Below, in pieces: positions 858 to 44,866 of a stretch of 53,607 bases of DNA. The DNA comes from Candidatus Peregrinibacteria bacterium (GTDB lineage: Bacteria; Patescibacteriota; Gracilibacteria; UBA1369; PNNO01), in contig JAFGJT010000007.1 of assembly GCA_016928915.1 (NCBI GenBank), positions 1 through 53,607 of the forward strand, read 5' to 3'. Numbering within the stretch: position 1 is the first letter of the stretch; each line of letters opens with the position of its first letter. Under the pieces are notes generated by a model. The model did not search any database. It worked only from the letters and a program-made list of their open reading frames with translations, and was not told the DNA's origin. A program made the translations under genes and the position numbers.

Positions 858-886
858 TTGACGGTGAGCGTGTACTCACCTATAAT
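858..886 (+). promoter_or_regulatory. Sigma-70-type promoter with a palindromic operator in its spacer, copy 1
   Basis: TTGACG (858-863) and TATAAT (881-886) are separated by exactly 17 nt. The palindrome GGTGAG-CGTGTA-CTCACC (863-880) fills the spacer, so a bound repressor would block RNA polymerase. The surrounding block 830-886 recurs at 2102-2158 with three differences. Transcription should start near 893, about 26 nt before the KilA-N gene. The cognate repressor is unknown; one of the neighbouring DNA-binding proteins is an obvious candidate (inference). Confidence 0.8.
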
Positions 887-2076: not shown

Positions 2077-2129
2077 TATTAGTGCGTCATGGATTTTAAT
2101 ATTCCGCAACAGGAAAGGGTTTGTTAGTA

Positions 2130-2158
2130 TTGACGGTGAGCGTACACTCACCTATAAT
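2130..2158 (+). promoter_or_regulatory. Sigma-70-type promoter with a palindromic operator in its spacer, copy 2
   Basis: TTGACG (2130-2135), a 17-nt spacer and TATAAT (2153-2158). The spacer palindrome is GGTGAG-CGTACA-CTCACC (2135-2152), pairing at 8 of 9 positions around a GTAC centre. It corresponds to 858-886 and differs only in the middle of the palindrome, so the outer arms look conserved. It should drive the Bro-N gene at 2194. Confidence 0.8.
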
Positions 2159-2193
2159 GAGGATACTATTTTTTATCATTAACCAAAAATTTT

Positions 2194-2955
2194 ATGACAA
2201 ATTTTGATGAATCTCTGGCTATCTTTAATAACTTTAAGATTCGCCGTCATTATGATGAAGCAAGGGGGCTGTGGTACTTCTCGGTGATTGATGTTGTTGC
2301 GGCTTTGATTGAGCAGCCGGATTTTAAAAAAGCTCAGAGTTATTGGACAACTCTTAAAAACCGCTTAAAACAAGAAGGAAACGAGTCTGTCACAAATTGT
2401 GACAAACTGAAACTAAAATCTACCGATGGGAAATATTACAAAACAGATGCTGCAGATGTGGAAACTCTTCTCCGTCTTATTCAATCAGTACCAAGTCCAA
2501 AGGCTGAACCTGTCAAACTCTGGCTCGCAAAAGTGGGATATGAAAGGCTTCAGGATATCGCGGATCCTGAAAGATCATTAAACAGGGCGAGAGAATACTG
2601 GAAACAACGCGGACGAAGTGAAAAATGGATTCAGCAAAGGATGTTAAATCAGGAAACAAGGAACAAACTGACCGATTACTGGGGTTTGCATGACATTAAA
2701 CAAGGTGAAGAATTTGCCATTCTAACAAATATTATTCATAAAGAATGGTCCGATTTATCAATAAAAGAACATAAAAATCTGAAAGGACTTAAAAGCCAAA
2801 ACCTGCGCGATCATATGAGCGAAGCCGAATTAATATTTAGCGCTCTTGCGGAGTTTTCAACCCGTCAGATAGCGCAAAGTGTAAATGCCGTCGGAATGGA
2901 TGAAAATAAAAAAGCCGGCAAACAAGGCGGCGGTATAGGAAAAACGCGAGAGTAG
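2194..2955 (+). CDS. Bro-N family (phage antirepressor/DinD-like) protein, probable 3' frameshift
   Basis: A 253-residue protein. 'WYFSVIDVVAALIEQPDF' near residue 27, 'LLRLIQSVPSPKAEPVKLW' near 91-109 and 'AKVGYERLQDIADPERSLNR' are typical of the BRO N-terminal antirepressor family. The second half ('NKLTDYWGLHD', 'GEEFAILTNIIHKEWSDLS', 'AEFSTRQIA') follows the DNA-damage-inducible-D-like bacterial version. The frame stops at TAG after GGGIGKTRE. The usual C-terminal ending (NARVELEEKTGKQVVTG) is present just downstream in another frame, up to a TAA at 3063-3065. One more A in the run at 2940-2944 would restore it. This is either a real truncation or a homopolymer error. Confidence 0.85.
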   Translation: MTNFDESLAIFNNFKIRRHYDEARGLWYFSVIDVVAALIEQPDFKKAQSYWTTLKNRLKQEGNESVTNCDKLKLKSTDGKYYKTDAADVETLLRLIQSVPSPKAEPVKLWLAKVGYERLQDIADPERSLNRAREYWKQRGRSEKWIQQRMLNQETRNKLTDYWGLHDIKQGEEFAILTNIIHKEWSDLSIKEHKNLKGLKSQNLRDHMSEAELIFSALAEFSTRQIAQSVNAVGMDENKKAGKQGGGIGKTRE

Positions 2956-3071
2956 AGCTTGAAGAAAAAACAGGAAAGCAGGTAGTAACTGGCAGAAATT
3001 TTCTTAAAAATGATCAAAGCAGGAAAATTCACAAATCCTTATCTATCAGACAGAAGACAATCTAACGAAAT

Positions 3072-4031
3072 CTAAATATCCCCGGCGTACTGCAGCATTT
3101 TAACGATCACCTTTGCGGCTTCGGCACGGGTCATGTTTCTGCCCGGGTAAAAGCGCTGGTTTGGTTCGCCGCCGATAAGACCCATTCTGTAAGCGTCTTC
3201 AACCCATCCGATCATCCAGCCGGTTACATCAATGTATGTGATTTTGTCGTAATTTACGGGGTGTTTTCCAAAAGAGGCGAGTACCATTTTTACGCCTTCG
3301 GCGCGGTTAACGGGGTTGTTTGGCTTGAATAAGCGCACTCCGGAATACGGACCGGTATAGCCGTCAGCTATATCCATTCTGTAAGCGGCGTTAACCCAAG
3401 GTGCCTGCCAGTTATCAAGATCCGTATAAAATCTGTTTCGATCTTCATCGCCAGGAACGGGCATTACGCCGGCGGCCATCATGCACATTTTTAGCATCTC
3501 AGCGCGGGAAACAGCCTGTTCGGGCCTGAAAGTGCCGTCGGGATATCCCTGAATTATGCCAAGCATTGCAAGTTGATATATGTATCCTTCAGCCCAGTGA
3601 CCGTGCAGATCGTAGAAGAACGGAACTGTGGTTACCGGAGGGTAATAGTCGTTGTAATACGGATCGCCGTAGTAGCTGTCGCCCGTGTTATCGGGGTAAT
3701 ACTCCTGAACAGGAAGCATCGCATCCTGCAAACCCCCGGCAGGGCATCCGTACGGGTAATTAAATTCACCTCCGCCTGAGCAGTAGCAGATGTGTCTTCC
3801 GCTAACTATGTCCCACTCGCCGCCCGTATCTTCGCACATGGCCCTAAAATCTTCGGCTTTCATGCCAAAAAGCCCGTCGTTTTTTACTTCGCGCGGGGCC
3901 TGAGGTTCTTCGCTGTAAACCTCGATCATTCCATAACCGGGTACATAAACATAGTCTGCGGCATAAGCCACATTTGAAAGCAAGGTTGATTGTATCAACA
4001 ATATGCCGGTCAATAAGATAAATTTTTTCAT
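3072..4031 (-). CDS. Secreted SLH-domain protein
   Basis: About 319 residues from the ATG at 4031, which gives a classic signal peptide (MKKFILLTGILLIQSTLL...AYA); an in-frame ATG three codons upstream (4040) is possible. A cysteine-rich segment near residues 65-105 contains 'CEDTGGEWDIVSGRHICYC' and a later GC. The C-terminal half has three SLH-like repeats: 'HWAEGYIYQLAMLGIIQGYP' with FRPEQAVSRAEML, then a 'WVNAAYRMDIADGY' repeat, then 'WVEDAYRMGLIGG' with MTRAEAAKVIVKML. SLH domains typically anchor proteins non-covalently to cell-wall polymers. The gene has its own strong promoter (4073-4101). Two other SLH proteins occur in this window, one of them giant. Confidence 0.85.
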   Translation of the reverse strand: MKKFILLTGILLIQSTLLSNVAYAADYVYVPGYGMIEVYSEEPQAPREVKNDGLFGMKAEDFRAMCEDTGGEWDIVSGRHICYCSGGGEFNYPYGCPAGGLQDAMLPVQEYYPDNTGDSYYGDPYYNDYYPPVTTVPFFYDLHGHWAEGYIYQLAMLGIIQGYPDGTFRPEQAVSRAEMLKMCMMAAGVMPVPGDEDRNRFYTDLDNWQAPWVNAAYRMDIADGYTGPYSGVRLFKPNNPVNRAEGVKMVLASFGKHPVNYDKITYIDVTGWMIGWVEDAYRMGLIGGEPNQRFYPGRNMTRAEAAKVIVKMLQYAGDI

Positions 4032-9464: not shown

Positions 9465-9740
9465 CGTTTGCGTAAAAGGTGCGGGTGCGGGATGCACTAT
9501 TGCTTCAATGCATTGTTTTATCAATTTTATTTGCATTTCAGGAGGATCACCTTTTTTTAATGGCTCTTTTGTTTTAACGGAAATTCTATACATGTCTTCG
9601 GGAGGATCAACAGCTCTTGTAACTTTTCCAACACCGATTGCAATAATTGACATTATTCCAAAAATACCAAGAATAATTGACGCATCTTCAGCAACTTTTC
9701 TTAATTTGCTTTTTTTAATTTCCGGCCCCTTCTCTTTCAT
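9444..9740 (-). CDS. Small single-pass membrane protein, unknown
   Basis: 98 residues: a basic N-terminus (EKGPEIKKSKLRKVAED), one membrane segment near residues 20-40 (ASIILGIFGIMSIIAIGVG), then an outward or soluble tail ending FTQTFYKDCE. It is not a lipoprotein and no family is recognised. It has its own minus-strand promoter (9775-9803). A fragment of its 3' end is duplicated at 8595-8631 beside cca, which suggests it once lay directly upstream of cca. Confidence 0.65.
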   Translation of the reverse strand: MKEKGPEIKKSKLRKVAEDASIILGIFGIMSIIAIGVGKVTRAVDPPEDMYRISVKTKEPLKKGDPPEMQIKLIKQCIEAIVHPAPAPFTQTFYKDCE

Positions 9741-9774
9741 TTAAAAATTATATAATTTATAATTTACATGTTAA

Positions 9775-9803
9775 GTCTATATATTATTTTAAAATTTTGT
9801 CAA
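9775..9803 (-). promoter_or_regulatory. Promoter of the small membrane protein
   Basis: Minus strand TTGACA (9803-9798), with a weak -10 such as TATAGA (9781-9776, 16-nt spacing). It ends four bases before the tsaD start codon on the other strand, so the two genes diverge from overlapping control DNA. Confidence 0.5.
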
Positions 9804-9807
9804 GCAA

Positions 9808-10863
9808 ATGAGGGTACTTGGAATTGAAACATCGTGCGACGAAACCGCTGCTAGCGTTGTGGAAAACGGCACGAAAGTTTTGTCGAATGTGATTGCGTCG
9901 CAGATTGATCTGCATAAGAAAACCGGCGGTGTTGTGCCGGAAGTTGCTGCGCGCGAGCATATTTTAAAGATTATTCCGGTTATAAAAGAGACTTTAGAGC
10001 AGGGCGGTTGTGAATGGAAAGATATTGACGGAATTGCGGCTGTGCCGGGGCCGGGACTTATTTCCGCTTTATTAACGGGGACTTTAACTGCTTCAACTTT
10101 GGCTTTGGTTAAAGAAAAACCGCTGATTCCGGTTCATCATATACTCGGGCATATTTACGGAAACTGGTGCGGCCGCGAAAAAGAAAAATTTGAATTTCCG
10201 ATACTTATTTTAACGGTTTCAGGAGGCCACAACGACCTTATTTTAATGAAAAATCACGGCGAGTTTGAACTTATAGGGCAGTCGCGCGACGACGCGGCTG
10301 GAGAGGCTTTTGATAAAGTTGCAAAACTTTTGGGGCTCGGATATCCGGGGGGGCCGGCCATTCAAAAAGCGGCTTTAGAAGGTAATAAAAACGCTTTTGA
10401 TTTCCCGAAAGCGAAACTTGGCAGCAATTCAAACGGCAATTCCGAAATTTTTGATTACAGTTTTTCGGGCCTTAAAACAGCGGTTTTATACGCGGTTCAG
10501 GAAAAATATGGAAAAGATTATCTGCCGGAAAAATTAAATAGAAAATTTGTATGCGACACAGCCGCTTCATTTCAAAAAACCGTTGTTGATACTTTAATTG
10601 ACCGGCTTGAAAACGCTGCTGACAAATATAATCCCAAAGAAATTCATATTGCCGGGGGGGTTTCGGCAAATCTTGCATTAAGAGAAGAAGCGAAGACGCG
10701 TCTTGTAAAGTTTAATGTTCCCATAAAATATCCCGTTGATATTTCTTACTGCACCGATAACGCGGCCATGATTGCCTCGTGCGGATATTTTCTTTTCAAT
10801 AAAGATCCCAACAAATATAAAAATTGGCAAAACATTCAGCCGAGCGCGGATTTTACTTTTTAA
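9808..10863 (+). CDS. tsaD: tRNA N6-threonylcarbamoyladenosine transferase TsaD
   Basis: 351 residues of the Kae1/TsaD family. 'LGIETSCDETAASVV' starts the ASKHA ATPase fold, 'HHILGHIYGNW' supplies the HxxxH metal ligands and 'TVSGGHNDL' the phosphate loop. 'DDAAGEAFDKVAKLLGLGYP' and 'AGGVSANLALRE' follow, and 'CTDNAAMIA' supplies the C-terminal Asp ligand. TsaD, with TsaB and TsaE, transfers threonylcarbamoyl to A37 of ANN-decoding tRNAs. Length and motifs are complete. The gene starts at a bare ATG with no clear Shine-Dalgarno and is followed 48 bp later by a membrane-protein gene in the same direction. Confidence 0.95.
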   Translation: MRVLGIETSCDETAASVVENGTKVLSNVIASQIDLHKKTGGVVPEVAAREHILKIIPVIKETLEQGGCEWKDIDGIAAVPGPGLISALLTGTLTASTLALVKEKPLIPVHHILGHIYGNWCGREKEKFEFPILILTVSGGHNDLILMKNHGEFELIGQSRDDAAGEAFDKVAKLLGLGYPGGPAIQKAALEGNKNAFDFPKAKLGSNSNGNSEIFDYSFSGLKTAVLYAVQEKYGKDYLPEKLNRKFVCDTAASFQKTVVDTLIDRLENAADKYNPKEIHIAGGVSANLALREEAKTRLVKFNVPIKYPVDISYCTDNAAMIASCGYFLFNKDPNKYKNWQNIQPSADFTF

Positions 10864-29899: not shown

Positions 29900-32800
29900 A
29901 TGACAAATAAAATCAATAAATCCAGTGAATATTCCTTTGTTTCCAGAATTGTTTCGGGAATGCTTATTCCCGTAATTTTATTTGTAAATATTTCTTCGTT
30001 TCCCGTTGCATTGGCGCAGTGGGGATCTAGCACCAACGAACCCGCACAGGTTGTTTCGTTAATCGCCGTTCTTGTTGATAATAGTCTTATTGAAAATAAT
30101 ACTGCGTATGAAGGGTTGAAAAATGATTATACCGATGAACTTAGGGCGGCGAATTTACGCGAACGCATTTTGAGGTTCGCAAAAGATGTACAGCTTTCAC
30201 AGCCTTATACAAAGTCTTTAATAATCCGCGTTAAACCGGAGGACTCACCGGCAAGTATTTCTCAGGCGCTTGAAACTTTATATTTTAAAGGTGAGAGTTC
30301 AACTGAAACAAAAAGCCAGTTAAACGGTGTTATTACCGTGGGTAATGTTCCCCTTCCGGTTGTTAATAAAAACGGCAACAGATTTATTAGTTTGTTTCCT
30401 TATACTGATTTCGAGGACAAGGCATATGTTTATAATTATGAGACAAATGAATTTGAACGTAACAGTTCCGTAATTTCCCCGAAAGTTGAAGTGTGGCACG
30501 GAGTGATTAAACCTTCAAAAGATGGTGAGGACGGCAATAACGAGCTGGCTTATTATTTTGATAAAAATCATTTATATCACAGCGGGCATTCGGATTATGC
30601 CGAATTTGACCGCAGAATGCTTTATGCCGACAACTTTTGGGAATTCGAGACAGCCGATATGAACGCTTACAAAAGATACGAACAGTACATCAAGCATATG
30701 GATGATTTTGCTTATCTGCGTTTTACAAAAACACTTTTAAAAGAACTTTCCGGCGCAAATAAAATTCCCAAAGGCGACGGCATAGACAATGATCTTGACG
30801 GATTTATTGATGAAGATCCTCTGGACGGTGAAGACAATGATAATGACGGAGAAATTGACGAGGATAACGGAGAAGATCCCGAAGCTGTTGATGCGGAAAT
30901 TTTTGATACGCTTCCCGATGTTCAAAGCAGAAATATTATTTTTAGTTATGCATTAAGATTCAACGAGGTTGTTTCAAATCACATACAAAAAATAAATGAT
31001 AATGTTAAAGGGCTTGGCAGATATGATGAATACAATTCCGTGCCTTCGTTGATTACGGCCAAAGATTTATACACGCAGGAATATTTAAAATCAGTAAACG
31101 ATTTAATTGAAACAAAGGTTGATGAATTTGCGCAGAAATTACAGGGAACGGTTACTCTTTTGGACGGAGCCCTGCTAAGCGGCACAATTACGTTTGAAGA
31201 TGATTCCACCGCAAGCATGACAGCCTGGAATTTTGAAAACTACGCAAAACATTCGGGCATTACTTACTATAACGGAAGGCCGGTAACCGATATTACCGAC
31301 CCGTCGCAGTGCACATTGTATCAGGGCGGCGGCAGTTTGCAGGATGAGATAGCCCAGCTTATTGAAAGGAACCGTCTGTATTACGCCCAGAGCGCCGACA
31401 GCAACAACAGCGGATATGCCGGATGCCACGGAGGGAATATAAACAATCCTGAAATGTGTTTCCCCGATGAAGCCACAAACTGGGTGGCGGATGACAGAGG
31501 AACAAAAATTGCTGAAAATGTTTTTGAAAGCGCGGTTAGCTACGGCGGATGTTTTGATTTTAGAGAAGCTACAAGATATTCGCAATATCTTGGTGAAGTG
31601 AGTGATTTTCTTGCGGACCCGGATTCAAATCCTTATCCGGGTGACAAACACAGACCAGCGGAAAATATAAAACTTTATCAAGATGCAAATATTTATCTTA
31701 CACTTAAAGATGTATTGGATTTATACGGCGGCTTTGACGGGACAGACAATGATGAAGACGGAAGCATTGATGAGGCCGATGAATATTCTTTAAGCTACAG
31801 CATTAATAAAGACGACTGGTATGCAATCGGAAGAGAGATTCTTGGTAACAGAAAAAATCATTTCATCATTCAAAATCCACCATATAGCAATGTAAAACAA
31901 ATTGATCTATATGTTGTTCAGGACATATCTGGGTTTTCAAGCCCCATTCCCAGCATCACTTATCATAAAGAACCTCTTCTTCAAACAATCAAAGCTCAGC
32001 TTGCAAAAGGCGACACAGACGCACTTCCGTCAAACAATCCAAGATACGTAGCATTGCAGGATCAGAACGGAAAATTCCAGAGAATTAATTATCCGGATTT
32101 ATTTAAAACAGAATCCGCGGAGGATTTTATGAACAGTTTAAAGGAGCTTGAAAAAAGATTAATTAATATGCCGGGTTACAATCCGTCGGCTTTTAAAATA
32201 GAAGGCGAACTGCAAAAAATAATCATTCCCGACCCAGACGCTGAACAGCAGCCATTATTCAGCAAAGCTGAAGATGCAATAAAATGGAGAAACATGGGAA
32301 CGGATATGAAGCATGCATATATAGTAAAGCAATATCTTGAAGAACATGAAAACGGATATGAATATATGTACCTGACCGCCGAAGGGTCTGCTGACGAATT
32401 TAATTTTGAAATAAATAAAGATCCGAATATAGTTGATAACGATAATACGTGGCTCGATCCGGAATCAACAATGGCTTTTGAGGAAGCGGATGAAGCGACC
32501 GGGGAAGAAGGCTCCGAGTCGGTTTTTATTCTGCAGTGGTTCACATATATCATCGAATATTTAAAGGAAATATCAAAACTTCCCGATAATATGAAGTTTG
32601 AAAAAGCATGTAAGCCCGATGATGAAAAAGAACAAGTTCAGGAACAGCCCATTAGGGGAAGCGACGCTCTAAAAGACGAACTGCCTCTTGAATTTGATGC
32701 TGACCAAAACGGAGTACCCGACAGCGCGGACTCAACTGCGGCTCTTATAATTTCATTCAAAGACAACCAAACAAAAATCCCTTCGGACTCAAGGGAACAG

Positions 32801-35800
32801 TTTACGATTAATGTCAGGGCAACAGACTCTTTAGGTCAAACAGCAAGCACAGATTCGTTCAGCGAAGTGCGGCTTGAAATTGTACAGATATCAAAAGACA
32901 AAAGCATAAAAATATACGGGCAGGACACAATCAATCTTGTAAACGGTGAGGGAATTTTTAAAATTATTCCCACTGGATTGCCGGGAGAATTTTCTTTGAT
33001 TGCCCACACAATCAACAGGCCCGCGAAAATAGTGTCAAATACTCTGGATCTTGAAAGCGAGGGCAAAACAGTAAGAGTTCTTACATATGTCATGGAAACA
33101 CAGGAAGCGCCGGTTTTTACCGAAACCGTTTTAAAAGACTATATAATTAAAAATGACGAAGGCACGGTAATAGCGCTTATTAATGCTGATACCGGAAAAA
33201 TTCAGATTAAAGATCCCGGATATGAAACAGCGGTTTATGAATCCACAAATTTAAAACCTTTTAAAATCGGTGTGACAGAAATACAAACCGGAAATATTGC
33301 TGCGAGTGTTGTTCTTGTACCGAAAAAAGAAGTAACCCCGACAGTACATAAAAGGGATTTTAGTTTTGAGGATAATATTCTCACCTTAAACGGAGTACAT
33401 GTTAAAGATCTTAATGACACTGATTATATTCAGCCTTATTTGGTCGGAGAAAATATTTATATTTACGACAGCCGCGGATTATACGCAAAGCGTATTGCAA
33501 AATTTACAAAACACGGAAAAGTTTATACGGCTGATGAATATTTTTTAAGCGTAAAAAATCCTGATGATTTCTACAAACCATATATATTTTATTTTGAAGA
33601 CGCTAAAGGCGATAAACTGGCGGAATTTGCAATAGGCTATCCGCAGGGCAGTATAAACGTACAAAAAAACGAAGGTGATTTTAAAATCGCATATGCGCAA
33701 ACAAGAACAAATATTGATACTGATTCCGACGGGCTTTCTGATTACGAGGAAATAACAATAGGAACCGACAGACTCAATAAAGACAGTGACGGAGACGGGT
33801 ATACAGACAAAGAAGAAATAGACGCGGGTTACGACCCGCTGAAAAAAGACGTTCTTCTGTTTTCGGACCTGTCGCCGGACCTGGCGGAATACGCCGCTTT
33901 TATAAAGCTGTATTTAAGGGGAATTATAACAAAAACCGCTGACAATAAAATAAATCCAAAAGATTATATTACGCGTGAAGATTATGTTCAGATGGTTTTG
34001 GGTTTAAACTGTATCAACTGCGCGTCATTTTCCGAAAAGACAAAACAGGAAGTTGATGCAAAATACATGCTGGATCCTTTTCCGGACGCCGATATTTCAA
34101 ATGAAAACAAATACTGTATTGCTCAGGGAAAAAATGACGGAATAATAATCGGTTATTTATCGGGTTTGGAAACGGGATTTTTTAAACCAAAATCTTATAT
34201 AAGCCGCGCCGAGGCGGTGAAGGTGGTGTTAAACGGAGCAGGCATCGAATCAGCGGAATATTTTGACCCTGCAAAGCCATGGTATTACCAGTATGTTCTT
34301 AAAGCGCAGGAATTAAAACTGTTCCCCAAGCAATCAAATGAAAATTTATATCCCATAACTTATTCCTCAAAAGATGATTTTAAGAAATGGATTGATATAC
34401 AGCTATCATTAAGCGGCGCCATATTTGAAAGATGGATCAATGAACACATAACACGCGCGGAATTTGCGGTTCTTGTAAGGAACGCAATGGAGAACAGGGA
34501 CTGTTATTTATCAGATTCTGATGGAGACGGGCTTCCTGACAATATTGAAAAATATCAGTACAATACCGATCCAAACAATCCCGATACCGACGCTGGCGGC
34601 AAAAGCGATCTTGAAGAAATAATAGCGGGCAAAGACCCTCTTAATCCGGCAGATGATCTTCTTGCCGATACGGACGGAGACGGGATGCAGGATTCATGGG
34701 AAGAAAATTATAATCTTGATATATATAATCCAAATGACGCACATCTTGATTTTGACAACGACGGATTAACAAATCTGCAGGAATTTTACACTGACACGGA
34801 TCCGCGAAACCCCGATACTGACGCAGGTGGCAAGGACGACGGCGACGAAGTTTTGCTTCAAAGCACCGATCCCAATGAAAAAAGCGATGACGGCAACGGT
34901 ATGGACCTGGATACGGGACTTTATGCAATCGGCAACAGCATCACACCTGACATTGTCTATGTACAAACCGCACAAGGTGAAGTAACAGAAGCGCCTGTCT
35001 ATGTTGACACACTTCCGGCTGACAACAGTTCAACACTTTTTTTGTCAGCGGAACTGCTTGATGAAAACGGTGAAATTATTACAGCCGATACCTCGACGGT
35101 AATCGAATTTTATATAAAAGAAGGCAGTACGGATGTAGAAATACTCCAGGAGAAAGTTAAAGTCGAGAACGGTGTTGCAGTCACACAGATCAAATCAAAC
35201 ACCAAAGCGGGAAATGTAATAATCGATGCGCGTATAATCGGAAGAGAGCTTCCCTCGTTACAAAGAGAAGTTTTTGTTGAACCACTTGAACCAAACAATT
35301 TATTAATTAAAACCGATTCTCCCGTTATCAAAACCGGCGGACTTTCCAAAACAAAAGTTGATATTATTCTGGCCGACCAATACGGCAATATTGTAAACAA
35401 CAGCTTTAACGGTATAACGGTCAATTTGGACGGTCCCGGATTAATAGATCCCGCGGCTGACGAAAGCTCCGACTCCGAAGGAACACAAATTGAGTCATAT
35501 GAAGGCTTATTTACTTTTGATTTATATTCAACCGCCCAGGAAGGTGAAATTTCAATCAACGCAGTATTGAATTCGGAAGACGAGACTATCAAAGGCACGG
35601 CTTTGGTTGTTTCAACTGAAAATCTTGAAATAAAAATCATTGCTGATAAAACCACCCTTATTGCAGACGGAGAAGACACGGTTATATTAAAAGCAGCTGT
35701 TGTTGACTCAACCAATAAGCTTGTTAAAGGATTTAATCAATCCATAACATTCAAAACATCTTCGGTTAATGCCGGCCAATTCCTGCAGGAACCCGTGATT

Positions 35801-38800
35801 GATATGATCGACGGGGAGGCGCAGATTACTTTTAAAGCATCTGTCGTTCTTTCGCCTCTCGAAATAAACGCCGCTGTGCCGGGGCTAGATCAGGCGTCGA
35901 TAATAATCGGAATGATCGCGGACGAACCTTATGAAATCAAACTTGAACCCGATGATATAAAATTTGATTCATCCGCGGATTCGTCAACCAATATTAAAGC
36001 AAGTCTTTTTGATAAAAACGGAAATGCTGTTTTATATGCCGATGATATTCCCATAAAATTTTCAATAACCGAAGCAACAAAAAAATATGCCGAAATTGTC
36101 GGTAATGCAGAAGTCCTCACATCAAAAGGAACTGCCGCTGTTAAAATAAAAGGGAAAGACCTGTCAGGTCCGGTTCATCTTATAGCTGGTGTTGAAGGGC
36201 TTAAATCAGCAACAATCACTCTTCAGGCAATCAAAAAAATTAAAGCGGGCGATATTATCGGCGATAATCCGAATGTGCTTTATGCCACTATGCTGGGTGC
36301 CCCCTTCGGGGATATTACAAAACAGGAATATGCTGCAGGAAGTCTTTTGTTTAAAGGAAAAACACAGGCAGTAACAGCTTTGACCACAGCACCTGACACT
36401 AAAAAGCCGCTTATAAATATAAATTATTCCGGCAATATAAATATACTTGATGAAGCTCAGATATCGGCTTCCTTTGTTCCTTCGGGTATTCTGCCCAACA
36501 GGGTAATTATTGAAAAACCAGATACCCAGGAAACTCTGGCTGAAATCTATTATATTTATCCTGAGGATCTTGATATTACTCTTCAGGAACAAGGTTACAT
36601 CGATTCATTAAAGCAGGGGGTTTATATAAATAAGCTTACAAACGAAACAGTGTACGCATTTAAAAAATCCGATGGCGGTCTTTCAATAACATATAATGGC
36701 AACGAAGCCTTGAAAATAACTAAAAACGGAAGTATAAAAGTAAGCGATAATTTCTTTAATGTAACCTTAAGTGAAGAACGCTCGAATTTTTTGGCATTAA
36801 AGGTAACACGCGGCCAGGATGAAATAGCCGATATTGTGTACGCGATTAATATTGATAAAAATGTAAATATTACAGAAAGCGGTTTTGAATATCAGCCGGG
36901 CTATCCTTACCAGCCGGGTTTCTATTTTAAACTTTCAACAAAGCTTCCGAATTATAAAATTGATGAATCGTTCTCGGGTTTATCAACCAACCTGCCAAAA
37001 GGAGCCGTGCTTATTAATAATGATTTAAGTGTTCCTCAGGATCAGGCTCCGGGCTTTGGATACACTTCGCTTGAAAAGATTTTTACACAGCAGGGGATAG
37101 GATTTAACGGAGACAATAAACATGTATTGTTTTTTGCGGCCGGCAACAATGTTGGAAAATCAAACCTGCCGTTTGCATCTGAAATCGGAATTAATCTCGG
37201 GGATCCGACAATACGAATAAAAAACGAAGCTCTTGCGGGAAGTTCGGGGTTTACGGAAGATATTGGAAATCCGCTATATTATGACAGCGAAACAATAAAA
37301 GAACTAATACTCGCGGATTACAACAATGATGATCTTGATGATATTTTGATTGCATATGAGAACGGAAAAATAAAACTTGTGCAGAACCAGCTTTCAGGAG
37401 AGCAATTTTCTTACAAAGGGAATATTCTTGATATCACAAACGGAATATACAGCGCAAATGCCGCGGATTTTAATAATGACGGTTATGATGATCTGCTGAT
37501 CTCTACCAAAGACAGCTGTCTTGGCAATGAGGTCTGCATATATATTTATGAAAATCAGAACGGGAATTTTATCAGAAAAAATCTTGAACTTGATGTTAGT
37601 GATAAAATTTCACAGGTTAAAACCGCCGATTTAAACAATGATGATTTTCCGGACATTATTCTTGCTGATTTCAGCGGAAATGTAAGGATTTACTATAACA
37701 ATTTCGGCGAGATTGAAACAACCTCACAGATACTTGAAAATCTGGGGATGAGTATTGATGCGGGCGGAGATCTTAAAGAAGAAATTCTAATTCATTATAC
37801 GGGCATGCCGCAGGAAATTCCCGATGACATGAGCGATCCAGCAACCTTTGACGATAATTTTGATTTCGAAATTTTTCAGCTGCAAACAGGCTCGCGCACT
37901 CAAAACGAATTTTTAACAATGCAAGAGCAGGCTGACATTATCGGATTCGGCGCAAGCCCCTCGTCAATGGCAACAACCGAGAATGTAATGTTCATTTATA
38001 TGGACAAAGATCCGATATTCGGCACTGTGGAATCGAAAAAACAGGCTATAGACACTAACGGAGGAACCCTGTCTCTGAACGACAAAATTGTCTATACCGT
38101 CACATTAAAAAATACCGGGCCGACTGATATCAATGACATATTGATAAGCGATATTATCGCCGATTCGGTTGATTTTAATAAAGAAAGTATAAGATGCCTT
38201 AACTGCGGAGAAGATGAAAACCTTGTTCTGATTGATTCGGGACAAAGCATCAGACCGTATATTATCACAGGCCTAAAAATCCCCGCGGGAGAAAGCAGGA
38301 TTGTTTCATACGAAACACGCATCAAAGATATTACAAAAATATCAATTGATTTAAACAAAAATTACGATGCTCCGTTTATTAAAGATGAATATATTGATAT
38401 TAATGTTAATCCCGAAAACAACACTTCGGGCAAAATGATATTTTTCTATTCTGTTGAAAAAAATTCCCAGACCGGAAAAATAACATATGCAAGATACATT
38501 TCGGAGGCTGAAAAAGCGGAGCCAGCAAAGCAGCCGTTTGACAGTGAAAAAGACGATAATAACGATGGTGTGCCAGATGAAATCGGGGATATGTACAACA
38601 ATTTAAATTCCGATGACGATGACGGAGACGGTATCCCCAACTCGTGGGATGAATTAAACGGAGAAATTGATAAGGCTCTTGCAAAAGTTGAAGAATTTCT
38701 AAATAAATTTTCATGCAAAGGAGGAGGGTGCATTCCGACTCCGATAAATATGGCATTCCTTGTTCCGGGTAACATTAATTTAATGGGTATACCGGCAGGT

Positions 38801-41800
38801 TACGATCCGGGTTTGCCCGTATTTGGCTGGGGCGCTCCAAGCACAGTGCCAATATGGCCTCCAACCCCATACCAGACAACACAGGGAGGAAGAATATATT
38901 TAAGCCCCACCTTAACGGGCAAGATTGCGACTGCGGTTTGTCTTGGTTCATACGGATCCGGACAATGCTTTTCAACAACTCTGCCTTTTTCTTTACTGCC
39001 TGAAAGCGCATGCGACGCACTTAACGAAGCATTTACGACAGCCATGTCAAAAGTCAGCAATGCAATGAGTTCTCTTAATTCGGGAATGTCTGTAATGAGC
39101 GGCGGATCCGGCATGCAGGCATCGGCAGACACTTCATTAAACGGAAGAACTTCAAGCGGAGGAATAACAGGAAGCTCAATTCTTGGAGGATATCCGGTTT
39201 CTGCAGACGGAAAAACAAACTTTAAAGCGCCCGGATTTCCAAAAACAATAACTGACTGGTTTGCGAAACAGATGGATGAGATTGTTGGTAAATTATCGGA
39301 TCTTCCTGATTTATATGTGTTATATCCGGATGTTAATGCAATAGTGAACTTTACTCCGCCAAAAGCGGATTTTAAGAATTTTAACGATGTACTTACCTAT
39401 ATCAATAAACTGCCTCTGATTACTCTTGAATCAAGGGAGGTTTCAATAAAAATTCCAGCTCTTACACAAAAAGAAATATTAAAACTTCAGTCCGAGCTGA
39501 TGCAGTGGGTCAATAGCCTAAAAAGGCAGTTGGTTCAGTTTAAGCTGGATTTCAAATGCGGCACAAAAGATGCGCTTGAAAATATTTGCGGCAATTATGT
39601 TGTGAAAATCGACAAAGTAATTCAAAGCGTTGAAAATAATTTAAAAATTCTTGAGGAGTATAAGAAATTACCATATAAAATTCTGGAGTACCGCAATATA
39701 CAAACAAAATATATTCAGGAAATAATATGCTACCTTGACGCCATATTGAATTTTGCAGGGGGTTATTACAAACGCCAGCTTGCAAGAATACGCGGCTGGA
39801 TGGAATTCTCAAATTATCAGAAAAAAATGCTGGATTCGTGGAAAGCAATAAGCAATCTTATGGCGGAATATCAAAAAAGCTGTGACGGGTGCAAAACAGA
39901 AAGATACACGCTTTTTGAAACAATGATGAATGTTGTTTTGGGCGCAATCCCAGAGCCGCCAATTATACCTTTTCCTAAATGGCCGGATATATATTTTGAT
40001 TTTTCACAAATTCAGCTGGGATTAAAAATTATTTGGCCGGACGTTAAATTTAAAGCAGAACCCTTAATTTTTCCAAAACTGCCGACGCTGCAGCTGCCAT
40101 CACTTTCCACCGGATTAAATCTGTCATTGCCGGAGGCGCAAATTCAGGCGGAACTTCCGGCAATTCCCGAAATCCCTTCTTTGCCGCAGCTTCCCGCTTT
40201 GCCCGAACTTCCGGATCTTCCGGCAATACCTATCCCGACTCTGCCCGACATCCCAAAACCGCCGGCAATTCCGGGTATTGATGCGGCAATAAAAAAAGTA
40301 ATCGGTGTTCTGGGTAAATTAATCAAAATAATCTGCCTGGTTAAAAAAGGTCTTCTTCCCGTAAAAGAAACGGATTTAAAAACCCAGATTGAAAGCATGA
40401 CCGCAAGGCCTTTAACTCCCGCGCTGCCAATTGATATGATGTTTAAATTCCAGGCTCCTGCAATAACATATCCAACGGTGGATAAAATAAAAATTACGGC
40501 AAAAATGGATTTTAGAATTGAAACGGAACAATTATATAACGCTGTTAAAGAGCTTGCAGATGAATGGAATAATATACTAACCGATATCACAGAAGTCTAT
40601 ACTCAGGGCGTTTCTCAGGCATCGCAGCAGCTGCAGCAGCAGACCACGCAGGTTCAGCAGACATTAGACGAAGCGTCACAGACGGCAACAGAAACAATTC
40701 CCGATAAAATTGTATTAAAAGCTGAGAATAAATATATTCAAAAAGATATACAGGTAATACCCGAATCACTGCCCGCGGAACTTGAAAATAGTTATCTTGC
40801 GCAGACAAGAAGCTCTCTTATTGCTTATTCCCGAACCTTAAACAGCATACAGCTCGAAGATATAAATTCAGCGTTTACATATCCGGCACTCGATAATTAT
40901 ATCGGCACGCGGCTTATAGCAAGCAATGACGATACTGTCTACAAGCCAAAAACCAACAACCAGACTTCGGGACTTACAGAGAATGAAGAACTTGCACGAA
41001 ATCTTATTGCGTTAAATACAAATGCAATTTCTTCAGCGGTTGTTGACGCGGAAGAAGCAAGCAATCCCACTTCGGGCCAGCAGCTTGAAGGATTGTATAT
41101 TTACAACAAAGACGAAGGAATAAACGAAAAAATACTTGCATACGGCGGTGAAACAAATCTTATAAACCATATTATCATCAATGATTTTGATGATGACACC
41201 GATGAAGACATTGTCTATTCATACGGAGGAAATGTTTACTATAAAGAAAATTACAAAAAACCAAAAAGCAGCAAATTTATAAACTACTTAAACACTGATC
41301 CAATCATCTACAATTTGTCGGAGTTCATCCCGTTAAGCCCGTCAGTAAACAAATTTTCGGTCAATTATGATTCGGGCAAATCAGTAAATTTTTCATGGAA
41401 TTCGCTTGGAGTATATGACCCGGCCGGCTATGAAATTATTTATAAAGATTCGCGTGACAATTTTGAAAAAAATATTTTCACAGCTTCAAATAAAATTAAT
41501 ATTGCGAAAAAGTTTATTACATTTACAACAATAGGCAGATTAAAACAGGATATTGAAATTACCGTTCTTGGCGGAAGCTTTACTGTTAACGGAGAAGCTT
41601 CATCGTTGTACTCATTTGGGGACCGCATTGATACAACCGATACAGCGGACACCAAAATAGCGATAACTTTCTCGGATTCAAGCCAGATTATTTTAGGACC
41701 GTCCGCAGCAGTCACTCTGCCCGATTTTACACCGGGCAACTTTAATCTTACTTTGCATCAGGGAGAAGCTCTGTTTAAAAGCAATTATTTTACCAACTTA

Positions 41801-44800
41801 TTCCTGCAGGATGGCTCCAGTGTAATAAATCAAAACGGCCTGGCGCTTTTGGAACTTAAAAACAACGATACTCTTTTAATCCGGCCCGACACGGTTTATT
41901 TTGGTACAAATATTGAGCAGGGATACGGCTATATTGAAAGAATTGACGGGGATGCCTTAATAAAAAGCAAGCCGAGAACCATAGTAACTCCGTCCACACA
42001 GATACTGCAAGTTAACCAGGATTATCTGATTCATACAATTGAAGATACATTGTTTGTCCTTAATTCCGAAGAAGAATCACGAAGAATATTCACAGTTAAA
42101 GCGAACACATCAATTCCCATATCACAAAATTACGCGAGCGATCTGGAATTAAAAGTAAGCTCCGGAAAACTTGAAATAATAAATATTAAAAGCGACGAAA
42201 CAACAGATATAAAACTTGAAAAAGGCATGCTGGTTTCGTTCGGCGACAAAATAACAATGAATACCGGAACAGCTGCAGTTAAATACGTTAACGGCGCAAA
42301 GACCGATCTTGCGGGCGGCGACACTCTGCTTGTTATGGAGCTTGTTGATAAACAAAACCCTTCTATTGAAATTGAAACCGATGAGGGGAATTTTTATTCA
42401 CAAATTTTTTCATATGATGCAGGAGGTTACCGAAGCAACCCGTCGGATATAAAACTTATGGCGCCGCAGCTTTGTTCCGACAAAGAACCTCCGTTTGCCG
42501 ATGCGGGCTTATCGCAAAAAGAGGTGATAATAATGCAGACCCTCAGGATAGACGCTTCAAAATCGTTTGATATCGCCGGTGCGATTACCTCATACTATAT
42601 GGATTTAAATCCACAAACCGATTCCGACAACGACGGAGACCCTGAAAACGACAAAGATCTGATAAATGAAAATCCCATGAATCCGGAATTTATACTCGGT
42701 CCGTTTAACGAAATAAAAACAAAAAAAGTTGTGCTCAATGTGGTTGATGAATCGTTAAATATCGGCAAACAAATTATTGAAATCAAAGTAATAATTCCGG
42801 ATATTACTCTGGATTCGATCGGTTACGAGGCTGAAAAAATTACCGGAAGCATTGATCCTTTAGCACAATATGTTCCGGTTACCATCATCAGAGACCGAAA
42901 CGGAATTTATAAAAAACTCGGTTCCGATTTAACGGATGATTCCGGAGAGTTTGAAATTTCAGGAATGGAATACGATGACACAATTCTTATTAAAAATTCA
43001 GAAGGCAAAACCATTGCCGAAGTAGACACAAAGACAGGACGCATTATCATACTCGACAATAATTATTATGTCGACGTTCTTGAAGCCGTGCCTCCAAATC
43101 TGCCCACAAGGCTTGTGATTAAAGAAAAAATCACGGAAATTATTTTATCAACAATACTTTTAATTCCCGATATCAACACGGATGTCACGATCCAAAATGA
43201 AAATTTTGAATTCACGCTCGAAAGTGTGATTGCTCTGGAAGGCGTGCATATTATTGATAAAAATCCCGCGGATAATATTAATATTTCAAAACTGCCCGCT
43301 TCAGACCCCAACTTTACGGGTGCGGCCGAGCTTAAAGAATTTGACAACCGATTGGCAATAATAGATACGGGCGGCAGTACGTACTTCTTTAGTGACAAAC
43401 TTGACCTTCGTTTAAAAGCGGCTTTATCAGCTGATGAGCCGATTATAATTGAAATCCTGTATGAGGGATTGGCGGCGGCTGAAATGTATATATCAATAAA
43501 CAACAACAAGTCCGCTGAAATCTTTAACCGCGAAATACTCGGCATGCCTCCGGAAGGTGTTCATGAAATTGACAGTGACGGGGACGGTATGAGCGACGCT
43601 TATGAATATAAATACGGTTTTGACGCGCTTAATCCGCTGGATGCCGCGCTTGATTCCGATGGTGATTCGCTGTCGAATCTTGAGGAATACAGATTAAAAA
43701 CCGACCCGTTGAATAAAGACACTGACGGTGACGGATTTGATGATAACGAAGAAATTGCATTCGGCAAAGATCCCCTCGCAAAAGCTTCAGTGCCGTTTGT
43801 TGATGTGGCTGCCGACAATCCTTACTATGACAATATCCTTAATTTGTCGCAAAAAAATATTCTTAAAGGTTATATGATTGACGGCAAATTATACTTTAAA
43901 CCCGATGATCCGATCACAAGAAAAGACTTTACGGATATTATTTTAAAAATGCTCTGCATTGTTCCGCGTGAAGAAGCATACAAAGCTCCGTCATTCTTTT
44001 ACGATGTAATATATGATGCTCAAAATCTTGATTATTATTTTGCGGTTATAAAAGAAGCTGTTCTGCAGGGATTAATAGCCGGGTATGCAGGTGAAACGGA
44101 TCCGGTGACGGGCTTGAATCCGTTTAAACCCGACAACAATATTTCAACGGCAGAAGCAGTTAAAATCGTTCTTGAAGCTCTTGAAACCATCGAAATAATA
44201 TCGCTTTCGGGAATTCAGCCTGCAGCCGAAGGTGAATGGTTTGCGCCATATATTGCGCTTGCAAAAGACATTACTCCAAAACTTTTAAAAGAAACCGAGG
44301 TAAAAGAAACATATCTTCTTACATCGCAGGAAACGCAGAATCCTAATAAATCAATTACCCGTTCTGAATTTGTGGCCATTGCCGACAGAGTTCTTAAGGC
44401 TTTTGACTGCTATATAATTGATGATGATAATGACGGTATGCCCAACGTATGGGAGCTGACTTACGGACTAAATCCGTTTGATTCTTCGGATGCCTTGCTG
44501 GATTATGATAACGAGGGGCTTATTAATCTGGATGAATATAAATACGGCACAGACCCTTTTAACCCGGATACCGATTTTGGCGGAGCAACCGACCGTGAAG
44601 AAGTTGACAGAGGCACAAACCCTGTAAACTACCCTGTTGACGACAAGCTTGTGTTTGATCTGTATCAAGATGTTCCTGATGAGGATTTTAGAAAAAATCT
44701 CGAAGAAGGAATTTACATTGTAGAAGACACCTGCAACATGTGTCCGTGCAAATCCGCAACAGATCACAGCGCCGATATCATATCAGGTGACATAATTTTT

Positions 44801-44866
44801 GCTGTTATATCCAATGAGGACAATTCAATCATATTCTCAAAAAGTAACGAAATAACATATTTATGA
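29900..44866 (+). CDS. Giant 4988-residue secreted multidomain surface protein
   Basis: The signal peptide ends near residue 40 (PVALAQ). Approximate order: TSP3-like Asp repeats (292-326, 611-628, 1272-1316); SLH set 1 (1330-1527); TSP3 repeats such as 'SDSDGDGLPDNIEKYQYNTD' (1534-1674); invasin/Ig-like domains (1690-2113); FG-GAP/VCBS repeats (2467-2603, e.g. 'ADFNNDGYDDLLIS'); DUF11-like domain (2714-2810); Gly/Ser-rich and helical parts (3050-3340); proline-rich segment (3350-3462); Gln-rich coiled coil (near 3580); VCBS-like (3750-3784); FecR-like beta domains (3887-3967 and near 4070-4140); PKD and carboxypeptidase-regulatory-like parts (4194-4380); TSP3 (4557-4630); SLH set 2 (4632-4834); TSP3 (4837-4904); a tail with CNMCPC near 4945. 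There is no sortase motif or C-terminal anchor. It is probably a calcium-stabilised surface adhesin. Its TGA stop overlaps the next gene's ATG. Confidence 0.9.
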   Translation: MTNKINKSSEYSFVSRIVSGMLIPVILFVNISSFPVALAQWGSSTNEPAQVVSLIAVLVDNSLIENNTAYEGLKNDYTDELRAANLRERILRFAKDVQLSQPYTKSLIIRVKPEDSPASISQALETLYFKGESSTETKSQLNGVITVGNVPLPVVNKNGNRFISLFPYTDFEDKAYVYNYETNEFERNSSVISPKVEVWHGVIKPSKDGEDGNNELAYYFDKNHLYHSGHSDYAEFDRRMLYADNFWEFETADMNAYKRYEQYIKHMDDFAYLRFTKTLLKELSGANKIPKGDGIDNDLDGFIDEDPLDGEDNDNDGEIDEDNGEDPEAVDAEIFDTLPDVQSRNIIFSYALRFNEVVSNHIQKINDNVKGLGRYDEYNSVPSLITAKDLYTQEYLKSVNDLIETKVDEFAQKLQGTVTLLDGALLSGTITFEDDSTASMTAWNFENYAKHSGITYYNGRPVTDITDPSQCTLYQGGGSLQDEIAQLIERNRLYYAQSADSNNSGYAGCHGGNINNPEMCFPDEATNWVADDRGTKIAENVFESAVSYGGCFDFREATRYSQYLGEVSDFLADPDSNPYPGDKHRPAENIKLYQDANIYLTLKDVLDLYGGFDGTDNDEDGSIDEADEYSLSYSINKDDWYAIGREILGNRKNHFIIQNPPYSNVKQIDLYVVQDISGFSSPIPSITYHKEPLLQTIKAQLAKGDTDALPSNNPRYVALQDQNGKFQRINYPDLFKTESAEDFMNSLKELEKRLINMPGYNPSAFKIEGELQKIIIPDPDAEQQPLFSKAEDAIKWRNMGTDMKHAYIVKQYLEEHENGYEYMYLTAEGSADEFNFEINKDPNIVDNDNTWLDPESTMAFEEADEATGEEGSESVFILQWFTYIIEYLKEISKLPDNMKFEKACKPDDEKEQVQEQPIRGSDALKDELPLEFDADQNGVPDSADSTAALIISFKDNQTKIPSDSREQFTINVRATDSLGQTASTDSFSEVRLEIVQISKDKSIKIYGQDTINLVNGEGIFKIIPTGLPGEFSLIAHTINRPAKIVSNTLDLESEGKTVRVLTYVMETQEAPVFTETVLKDYIIKNDEGTVIALINADTGKIQIKDPGYETAVYESTNLKPFKIGVTEIQTGNIAASVVLVPKKEVTPTVHKRDFSFEDNILTLNGVHVKDLNDTDYIQPYLVGENIYIYDSRGLYAKRIAKFTKHGKVYTADEYFLSVKNPDDFYKPYIFYFEDAKGDKLAEFAIGYPQGSINVQKNEGDFKIAYAQTRTNIDTDSDGLSDYEEITIGTDRLNKDSDGDGYTDKEEIDAGYDPLKKDVLLFSDLSPDLAEYAAFIKLYLRGIITKTADNKINPKDYITREDYVQMVLGLNCINCASFSEKTKQEVDAKYMLDPFPDADISNENKYCIAQGKNDGIIIGYLSGLETGFFKPKSYISRAEAVKVVLNGAGIESAEYFDPAKPWYYQYVLKAQELKLFPKQSNENLYPITYSSKDDFKKWIDIQLSLSGAIFERWINEHITRAEFAVLVRNAMENRDCYLSDSDGDGLPDNIEKYQYNTDPNNPDTDAGGKSDLEEIIAGKDPLNPADDLLADTDGDGMQDSWEENYNLDIYNPNDAHLDFDNDGLTNLQEFYTDTDPRNPDTDAGGKDDGDEVLLQSTDPNEKSDDGNGMDLDTGLYAIGNSITPDIVYVQTAQGEVTEAPVYVDTLPADNSSTLFLSAELLDENGEIITADTSTVIEFYIKEGSTDVEILQEKVKVENGVAVTQIKSNTKAGNVIIDARIIGRELPSLQREVFVEPLEPNNLLIKTDSPVIKTGGLSKTKVDIILADQYGNIVNNSFNGITVNLDGPGLIDPAADESSDSEGTQIESYEGLFTFDLYSTAQEGEISINAVLNSEDETIKGTALVVSTENLEIKIIADKTTLIADGEDTVILKAAVVDSTNKLVKGFNQSITFKTSSVNAGQFLQEPVIDMIDGEAQITFKASVVLSPLEINAAVPGLDQASIIIGMIADEPYEIKLEPDDIKFDSSADSSTNIKASLFDKNGNAVLYADDIPIKFSITEATKKYAEIVGNAEVLTSKGTAAVKIKGKDLSGPVHLIAGVEGLKSATITLQAIKKIKAGDIIGDNPNVLYATMLGAPFGDITKQEYAAGSLLFKGKTQAVTALTTAPDTKKPLININYSGNINILDEAQISASFVPSGILPNRVIIEKPDTQETLAEIYYIYPEDLDITLQEQGYIDSLKQGVYINKLTNETVYAFKKSDGGLSITYNGNEALKITKNGSIKVSDNFFNVTLSEERSNFLALKVTRGQDEIADIVYAINIDKNVNITESGFEYQPGYPYQPGFYFKLSTKLPNYKIDESFSGLSTNLPKGAVLINNDLSVPQDQAPGFGYTSLEKIFTQQGIGFNGDNKHVLFFAAGNNVGKSNLPFASEIGINLGDPTIRIKNEALAGSSGFTEDIGNPLYYDSETIKELILADYNNDDLDDILIAYENGKIKLVQNQLSGEQFSYKGNILDITNGIYSANAADFNNDGYDDLLISTKDSCLGNEVCIYIYENQNGNFIRKNLELDVSDKISQVKTADLNNDDFPDIILADFSGNVRIYYNNFGEIETTSQILENLGMSIDAGGDLKEEILIHYTGMPQEIPDDMSDPATFDDNFDFEIFQLQTGSRTQNEFLTMQEQADIIGFGASPSSMATTENVMFIYMDKDPIFGTVESKKQAIDTNGGTLSLNDKIVYTVTLKNTGPTDINDILISDIIADSVDFNKESIRCLNCGEDENLVLIDSGQSIRPYIITGLKIPAGESRIVSYETRIKDITKISIDLNKNYDAPFIKDEYIDINVNPENNTSGKMIFFYSVEKNSQTGKITYARYISEAEKAEPAKQPFDSEKDDNNDGVPDEIGDMYNNLNSDDDDGDGIPNSWDELNGEIDKALAKVEEFLNKFSCKGGGCIPTPINMAFLVPGNINLMGIPAGYDPGLPVFGWGAPSTVPIWPPTPYQTTQGGRIYLSPTLTGKIATAVCLGSYGSGQCFSTTLPFSLLPESACDALNEAFTTAMSKVSNAMSSLNSGMSVMSGGSGMQASADTSLNGRTSSGGITGSSILGGYPVSADGKTNFKAPGFPKTITDWFAKQMDEIVGKLSDLPDLYVLYPDVNAIVNFTPPKADFKNFNDVLTYINKLPLITLESREVSIKIPALTQKEILKLQSELMQWVNSLKRQLVQFKLDFKCGTKDALENICGNYVVKIDKVIQSVENNLKILEEYKKLPYKILEYRNIQTKYIQEIICYLDAILNFAGGYYKRQLARIRGWMEFSNYQKKMLDSWKAISNLMAEYQKSCDGCKTERYTLFETMMNVVLGAIPEPPIIPFPKWPDIYFDFSQIQLGLKIIWPDVKFKAEPLIFPKLPTLQLPSLSTGLNLSLPEAQIQAELPAIPEIPSLPQLPALPELPDLPAIPIPTLPDIPKPPAIPGIDAAIKKVIGVLGKLIKIICLVKKGLLPVKETDLKTQIESMTARPLTPALPIDMMFKFQAPAITYPTVDKIKITAKMDFRIETEQLYNAVKELADEWNNILTDITEVYTQGVSQASQQLQQQTTQVQQTLDEASQTATETIPDKIVLKAENKYIQKDIQVIPESLPAELENSYLAQTRSSLIAYSRTLNSIQLEDINSAFTYPALDNYIGTRLIASNDDTVYKPKTNNQTSGLTENEELARNLIALNTNAISSAVVDAEEASNPTSGQQLEGLYIYNKDEGINEKILAYGGETNLINHIIINDFDDDTDEDIVYSYGGNVYYKENYKKPKSSKFINYLNTDPIIYNLSEFIPLSPSVNKFSVNYDSGKSVNFSWNSLGVYDPAGYEIIYKDSRDNFEKNIFTASNKINIAKKFITFTTIGRLKQDIEITVLGGSFTVNGEASSLYSFGDRIDTTDTADTKIAITFSDSSQIILGPSAAVTLPDFTPGNFNLTLHQGEALFKSNYFTNLFLQDGSSVINQNGLALLELKNNDTLLIRPDTVYFGTNIEQGYGYIERIDGDALIKSKPRTIVTPSTQILQVNQDYLIHTIEDTLFVLNSEEESRRIFTVKANTSIPISQNYASDLELKVSSGKLEIINIKSDETTDIKLEKGMLVSFGDKITMNTGTAAVKYVNGAKTDLAGGDTLLVMELVDKQNPSIEIETDEGNFYSQIFSYDAGGYRSNPSDIKLMAPQLCSDKEPPFADAGLSQKEVIIMQTLRIDASKSFDIAGAITSYYMDLNPQTDSDNDGDPENDKDLINENPMNPEFILGPFNEIKTKKVVLNVVDESLNIGKQIIEIKVIIPDITLDSIGYEAEKITGSIDPLAQYVPVTIIRDRNGIYKKLGSDLTDDSGEFEISGMEYDDTILIKNSEGKTIAEVDTKTGRIIILDNNYYVDVLEAVPPNLPTRLVIKEKITEIILSTILLIPDINTDVTIQNENFEFTLESVIALEGVHIIDKNPADNINISKLPASDPNFTGAAELKEFDNRLAIIDTGGSTYFFSDKLDLRLKAALSADEPIIIEILYEGLAAAEMYISINNNKSAEIFNREILGMPPEGVHEIDSDGDGMSDAYEYKYGFDALNPLDAALDSDGDSLSNLEEYRLKTDPLNKDTDGDGFDDNEEIAFGKDPLAKASVPFVDVAADNPYYDNILNLSQKNILKGYMIDGKLYFKPDDPITRKDFTDIILKMLCIVPREEAYKAPSFFYDVIYDAQNLDYYFAVIKEAVLQGLIAGYAGETDPVTGLNPFKPDNNISTAEAVKIVLEALETIEIISLSGIQPAAEGEWFAPYIALAKDITPKLLKETEVKETYLLTSQETQNPNKSITRSEFVAIADRVLKAFDCYIIDDDNDGMPNVWELTYGLNPFDSSDALLDYDNEGLINLDEYKYGTDPFNPDTDFGGATDREEVDRGTNPVNYPVDDKLVFDLYQDVPDEDFRKNLEEGIYIVEDTCNMCPCKSATDHSADIISGDIIFAVISNEDNSIIFSKSNEITYL

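Follow-up and report, generated by a model that had tools for sequence, protein, structure and literature searches.

A Palindromic Promoter Element as a Predicted LexA Operator of KilA-N and Bro-N Genes in Peregrinibacteria-Type Bacteria

The KilA-N and Bro-N Cassettes

The window, a 53,607-nucleotide stretch of DNA, is one contig (C10) of the 20 that make up the 1.13-Mb assembly of a Peregrinibacteria-type Patescibacterium. Near its start lie two phage-antirepressor-like genes on the forward strand, both of which we predict to be controlled by LexA: a KilA-N domain gene (positions 919–1737; 272 residues; PF04383, 92.7 bits) and a Bro-N domain gene (2194–2955; 253 residues; PF02498, 27.6 bits, just over the cut-off). 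Read by eye, the C-terminal tail of the Bro-N protein apparently resumes in another frame past position ~2945, after a run of A residues (window 2940–3075); this appears to be a frameshift or a sequence error. Each cassette is preceded by a forward copy of a 236-bp repeat (366–601 before KilA-N and 1771–2006 before Bro-N; 96% identical), and a third, partly deleted copy is found on contig C14 (28829–29013), so that three copies flank the ORF6N, KilA-N, and Bro-N cassettes. Bases 1–87 of the window repeat the last 87 bases of C14 exactly, and because of this overlap the two contigs probably join; the joined sequence would carry, one after the other, a type I restriction locus (hsdR, hsdS, and hsdM, assigned by reading), the repeat, ORF6N, the repeat, KilA-N, the repeat, and Bro-N. 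The neighbors of the cassettes look chromosomal or restriction-related by reading, and no prophage was recognized around them. Farther along the window, one open reading frame spans 4988 codons (29900–44866) and would encode a giant protein for a genome of 1.1 Mb.

Both genes are served by near-consensus σ70 promoters with 17-bp spacers, each scoring 11 of 12, the top score in the region, and in both the spacer is filled by a palindrome, GGTGAG-N6-CTCACC. At the KilA-N promoter, the last G of the −35 hexamer TTGACG (858–863) is the first base of the predicted LexA operator, or SOS box, GGTGAGCGTGTACTCACC (863–880), and the −10 hexamer TATAAT (881–886) follows directly after the palindrome; at the Bro-N promoter, TTGACG (2130–2135), the predicted operator GGTGAGCGTACACTCACC (2135–2152), and TATAAT (2153–2158) are laid out in the same way, all on the forward strand. 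The original prediction had described just such palindromes fitted between TTGACG and TATAAT, and it is borne out to the base: the 6-bp arms are perfect in both copies and the spacers are exactly 17 bp. An Rfam search of the first 3.2 kb of the window returned no RNA element.

It had also been argued that conserved arms around a changing center betray a dimeric repressor site. The arms are indeed perfect, but the two sites sit in a duplicated 75-bp promoter segment (823–897 and 2095–2169, forward strand, 87% identical) and thus are not two independent witnesses; moreover, the center does not vary freely, being an alternating pyrimidine-purine run, YRYRYR, in both copies. Two matches in the window, taken alone, are only mildly unusual: with up to two mismatches allowed, 7 of 100 shuffled sequences reach two matches (shuffle mean, 0.5). 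The neighboring ORF6N gene has no GGTGAG-N6-CTCACC site in the window search.

The Same Site at SOS Promoters of the Host

If the two window sites are copies of one another, what marks the palindrome as an operator? The excess of sites becomes visible at the scale of the whole genome rather than in the window. The host genome contains five exact GGTGAG-N6-CTCACC sites and zero sites with one mismatch, and the matches fall in promoters of SOS genes instead of being scattered through coding DNA, the outcome that would have spoken against an operator. Two of the five are the KilA-N and Bro-N sites of the window. The other three lie (i) at the recA promoter, arranged as TTGACA, box, TATACT; (ii) at the lexA promoter, arranged as TTGACG, box, TATAAT and followed by a second box, GTGAGCGTACACTCAC, to form a tandem pair; and (iii) directly upstream of a DUF763 gene, a second KilA-N gene being divergently oriented at a distance of 189 bp. 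The products (RecA, LexA, DUF763, KilA-N, and Bro-N) were identified by Pfam and NCBIfam. Behind DUF763, in the same box-bearing operon, come an MGMT/UmuD fusion gene and then a UmuC-type gene, which makes the operon an SOS target of the usual kind. The fusion (L192:4547–5344; G000 contig C2, about 9546–10343) joins an O6-methylguanine-DNA methyltransferase domain (PF01035) to a UmuD-like S24 autoprotease domain. A weaker host site, GGTGAGTATATATTCACT, precedes an HNH-like gene by ~250 bp.

The gene behind the lexA site encodes LexA by model score (TIGR00498, 160 bits against a cut-off of 111), its nearest named relatives being proteins of Patescibacteria and Peregrinibacteria. A DNA-binding domain is encoded, and comparison by eye with solved LexA indicates that the Ala-Gly cleavage site and the Ser/Lys pair are conserved. 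A box at its own promoter is what would be expected of an autoregulated LexA.

Distribution Across the Order

The site is carried by 49 of the 59 genomes of the order (the host and its relatives), with 187 sites against 2 for a reversed-pattern control. The promoter form, TTGAC-N-GTGAG-N6-CTCACC, is confined to the order: it was found in 20 of 22 genomes of the order, in none of the 123 from the remaining orders of the class, and in none of the 177 from other classes; a search of viral contigs for the promoter-operator likewise gave no match. The lexA promoters of ten named Patescibacteria/Peregrinibacteria have the box in all ten cases. The claim that the palindrome is a dimeric repressor site is supported, the same box recurring at promoters of recA, lexA, and other SOS genes throughout the genome and the order.

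This distribution also bears on a non-regulatory reading, in which the palindrome is no more than a by-product of cassette duplication, such as a hairpin or the end of a mobile element. The setting of the window sites, within 87% identical segments that adjoin the 236-bp repeats, might suggest as much; however, the repeat is confined to the host, with no copy in any of the 58 other genomes searched, whereas the box extends across the order and stands at recA and lexA promoters. The by-product explanation is refuted by this pattern, and we give it next to no credence.

A detailed set of 104 sites from 27 genomes (99 from relatives and the five host sites) reveals which genes the box accompanies. 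TTGAC stands directly in front of 67 of the 104 sites, and 53 of those 67 also have a −10-like hexamer. The most frequent genes behind the sites are recA (25; the host and 24 others) and lexA (18), all with TTGAC directly in front; then come Bro-N (8), DUF763 (5), RadA-like (3), DinD type (3), and UmuC/DinB (2) genes, and single cases of a PIF1-like helicase, AntA, RhuM, and Fic. Seven box-linked Bro-N genes from relatives cluster with the Bro-N gene of the window. An HNH-like family lies behind 23 of the 104 sites, none of which has a −35 element; these are a notable part of a subset of order-wide sites that stand outside a −35/−10 context. The proteins of this family have no Pfam match and are called HNH-like from their C-termini, by eye; examples come from relatives (L105, L109, L139, and L171) and from the host itself (L014:128–1252). 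Arm conservation in this set follows by construction, the search having demanded exact arms; the center was left unconstrained, and it reads YRYRYR in 54 of the 104 sites against ~1 in 64 by chance.

Could the proteins encoded behind the window sites be the ones that bind them? KilA-N, Bro-N, and ORF6N domains are thought to bind DNA, two such genes lie directly behind the window sites, and the palindrome could then be an operator through which these proteins autoregulate their own cassettes. But only 15 of the 59 genomes have KilA-N, compared with 49 that have the site, so a KilA-N protein is not its general binder; no KilA-N gene lies near the sites at recA and lexA; and most KilA-N genes, as well as the ORF6N gene of the window, lack the site. 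On the KilA-N distribution and the placement of the sites, autoregulation is very improbable. Among the candidate binders put forward originally, the LexA-like host repressor stands, and KilA-N, Bro-N, and ORF6N proteins are not likely to qualify.

Most KilA-N genes of the order, about 17 of 22 matches, have no box. Those that do are spread over several families: besides the host, the box lies directly in front of KilA-N in family f7, accompanies a truncated KilA-N gene in f13, and is placed ~270 bp upstream in f2. With boxed cases in several families and most genes unboxed, the regulon took up KilA-N genes repeatedly, not universally. We considered whether this KilA-N family is under SOS control in general and rejected the idea: 47 KilA-N relatives on viral contigs have no classical LexA box, the one exception being a GTAC-type palindrome on two near-identical contigs.

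Covariation of the Predicted Operator with LexA

LexA is present in 58 of the 59 genomes, and one family offers a natural variation on the theme. In f15, the exact site is absent, yet the lexA promoters keep the layout with changed outer bases: in the clearest cases, they read TTGACYATGAG-N6-CTCATATA, and YATGAG-N6-CTCAT thus takes the place of GGTGAG-N6-CTCACC at the family's own lexA promoter. The recognition helix, which we placed by alignment to solved LexA, differs as well: SDGF in f15 LexA versus SDN(S/G) in the other families, with SDNS accompanying GGTGAG. As read from the aligned sequences, the predicted operator and the recognition helix of LexA vary together, a rule that rests on a few clear f15 cases and the rest of the order, since about half of the f15 promoters carry imperfect palindromes.

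This covariation weighs on another alternative, that the site is recognized by a different dimeric repressor, which would control lexA and recA jointly with the window genes. The host does encode further S24-domain proteins that might fill such a role. Yet it is the lexA promoter itself that the site overlaps and the LexA helix with which it changes across families; the genes under the box are those of the SOS core, and LexA is nearly ubiquitous in the order. A separate repressor thus has only a very slight chance of being the reader of the box.

A Model for LexA Control

Together, these observations make it highly probable that GGTGAG-YRYRYR-CTCACC is the LexA operator, or SOS box, of this Peregrinibacteria-type order, and that the KilA-N and Bro-N genes of the window belong to the host SOS regulon. 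The suggestion that both cassettes answer to one repressor would then be correct, with chromosomal LexA as the predicted shared regulator. In the classical SOS circuit, a LexA dimer keeps the promoter blocked until activated RecA prompts the repressor to cleave itself, which frees the promoter. By the same logic, we infer that a LexA dimer seated between the −35 and −10 hexamers would block RNA polymerase; DNA damage would activate RecA, LexA would cleave itself, and the box-bearing promoters would be released, allowing KilA-N and Bro-N to be made after damage. The two genes would share this regulon with lexA, recA, and the DUF763–MGMT/UmuD–UmuC operon. The same site occurs in the lexA and recA promoters of the host and of the order, so DNA damage probably turns on the two antirepressor-like genes.

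What might the KilA-N and Bro-N products do? Our best guess, drawn by analogy with two known systems, is a DinD-like or antirepressor-like role. E. coli dinD is a Bro-N domain gene under LexA. One relative's box-linked protein scores 320 bits with the DinD equivalog model (NF008573), above the cut-off of 242; by contrast, the Bro-N protein of the window has no NCBIfam match, hence no DinD call, and only a marginal Bro-N score. In Salmonella, Gifsy prophage antirepressors are directly controlled by host LexA (Lemire et al., 2011, PMC3121763), the arrangement predicted here for the window genes. The Gifsy antirepressors, however, are small prophage proteins, whereas the window genes encode KilA-N and Bro-N domains beside a type I restriction locus, with no prophage recognized.

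Sanchez-Osuna, Barbe and Erill (2017, Environ. Microbiol. 19:3465) have reportedly carried out a comparative analysis of the DNA-damage (SOS) network of the Patescibacteria, the phylum to which the window organism belongs; among the papers available to us, none names LexA together with Peregrinibacteria. As in other bacterial SOS systems, the operator is found at lexA, recA, and error-prone polymerase promoters of a genome that encodes both LexA and RecA. LexA boxes of other bacteria include TTAC-N3-GTAA, GGTT-N10-AACC, and GTTC-N7-GTTC, with 17 LexA motifs reported in all (PMC8565304); GGTGAG-YRYRYR-CTCACC matches none of the motifs given in full in the passages of that work available to us. 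The type of box is in itself ordinary; the interesting part is the recurrence of antirepressor-domain genes (KilA-N, Bro-N/DinD, AntA, and RhuM) in the regulon.

A broader proposal, to which we lean a little less than to its contrary, is that an order-specific LexA operator that has co-varied with the recognition helix defines the SOS regulon of these small-genome bacteria, and that KilA-N, Bro-N/DinD, AntA, RhuM, and the HNH-like family have repeatedly been drawn into this regulon as effectors induced by damage, whose purpose might be to release mobile elements or to act against them. Patescibacteria are hardly ever cultured, and the model assigns their orphan antirepressor-like genes a predicted regulator, LexA, with DNA damage as the predicted inducer. 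The order would also provide a clean operator with a natural switch of LexA specificity between families, testable in vitro, and an SOS regulon that can easily be searched for across the whole order.
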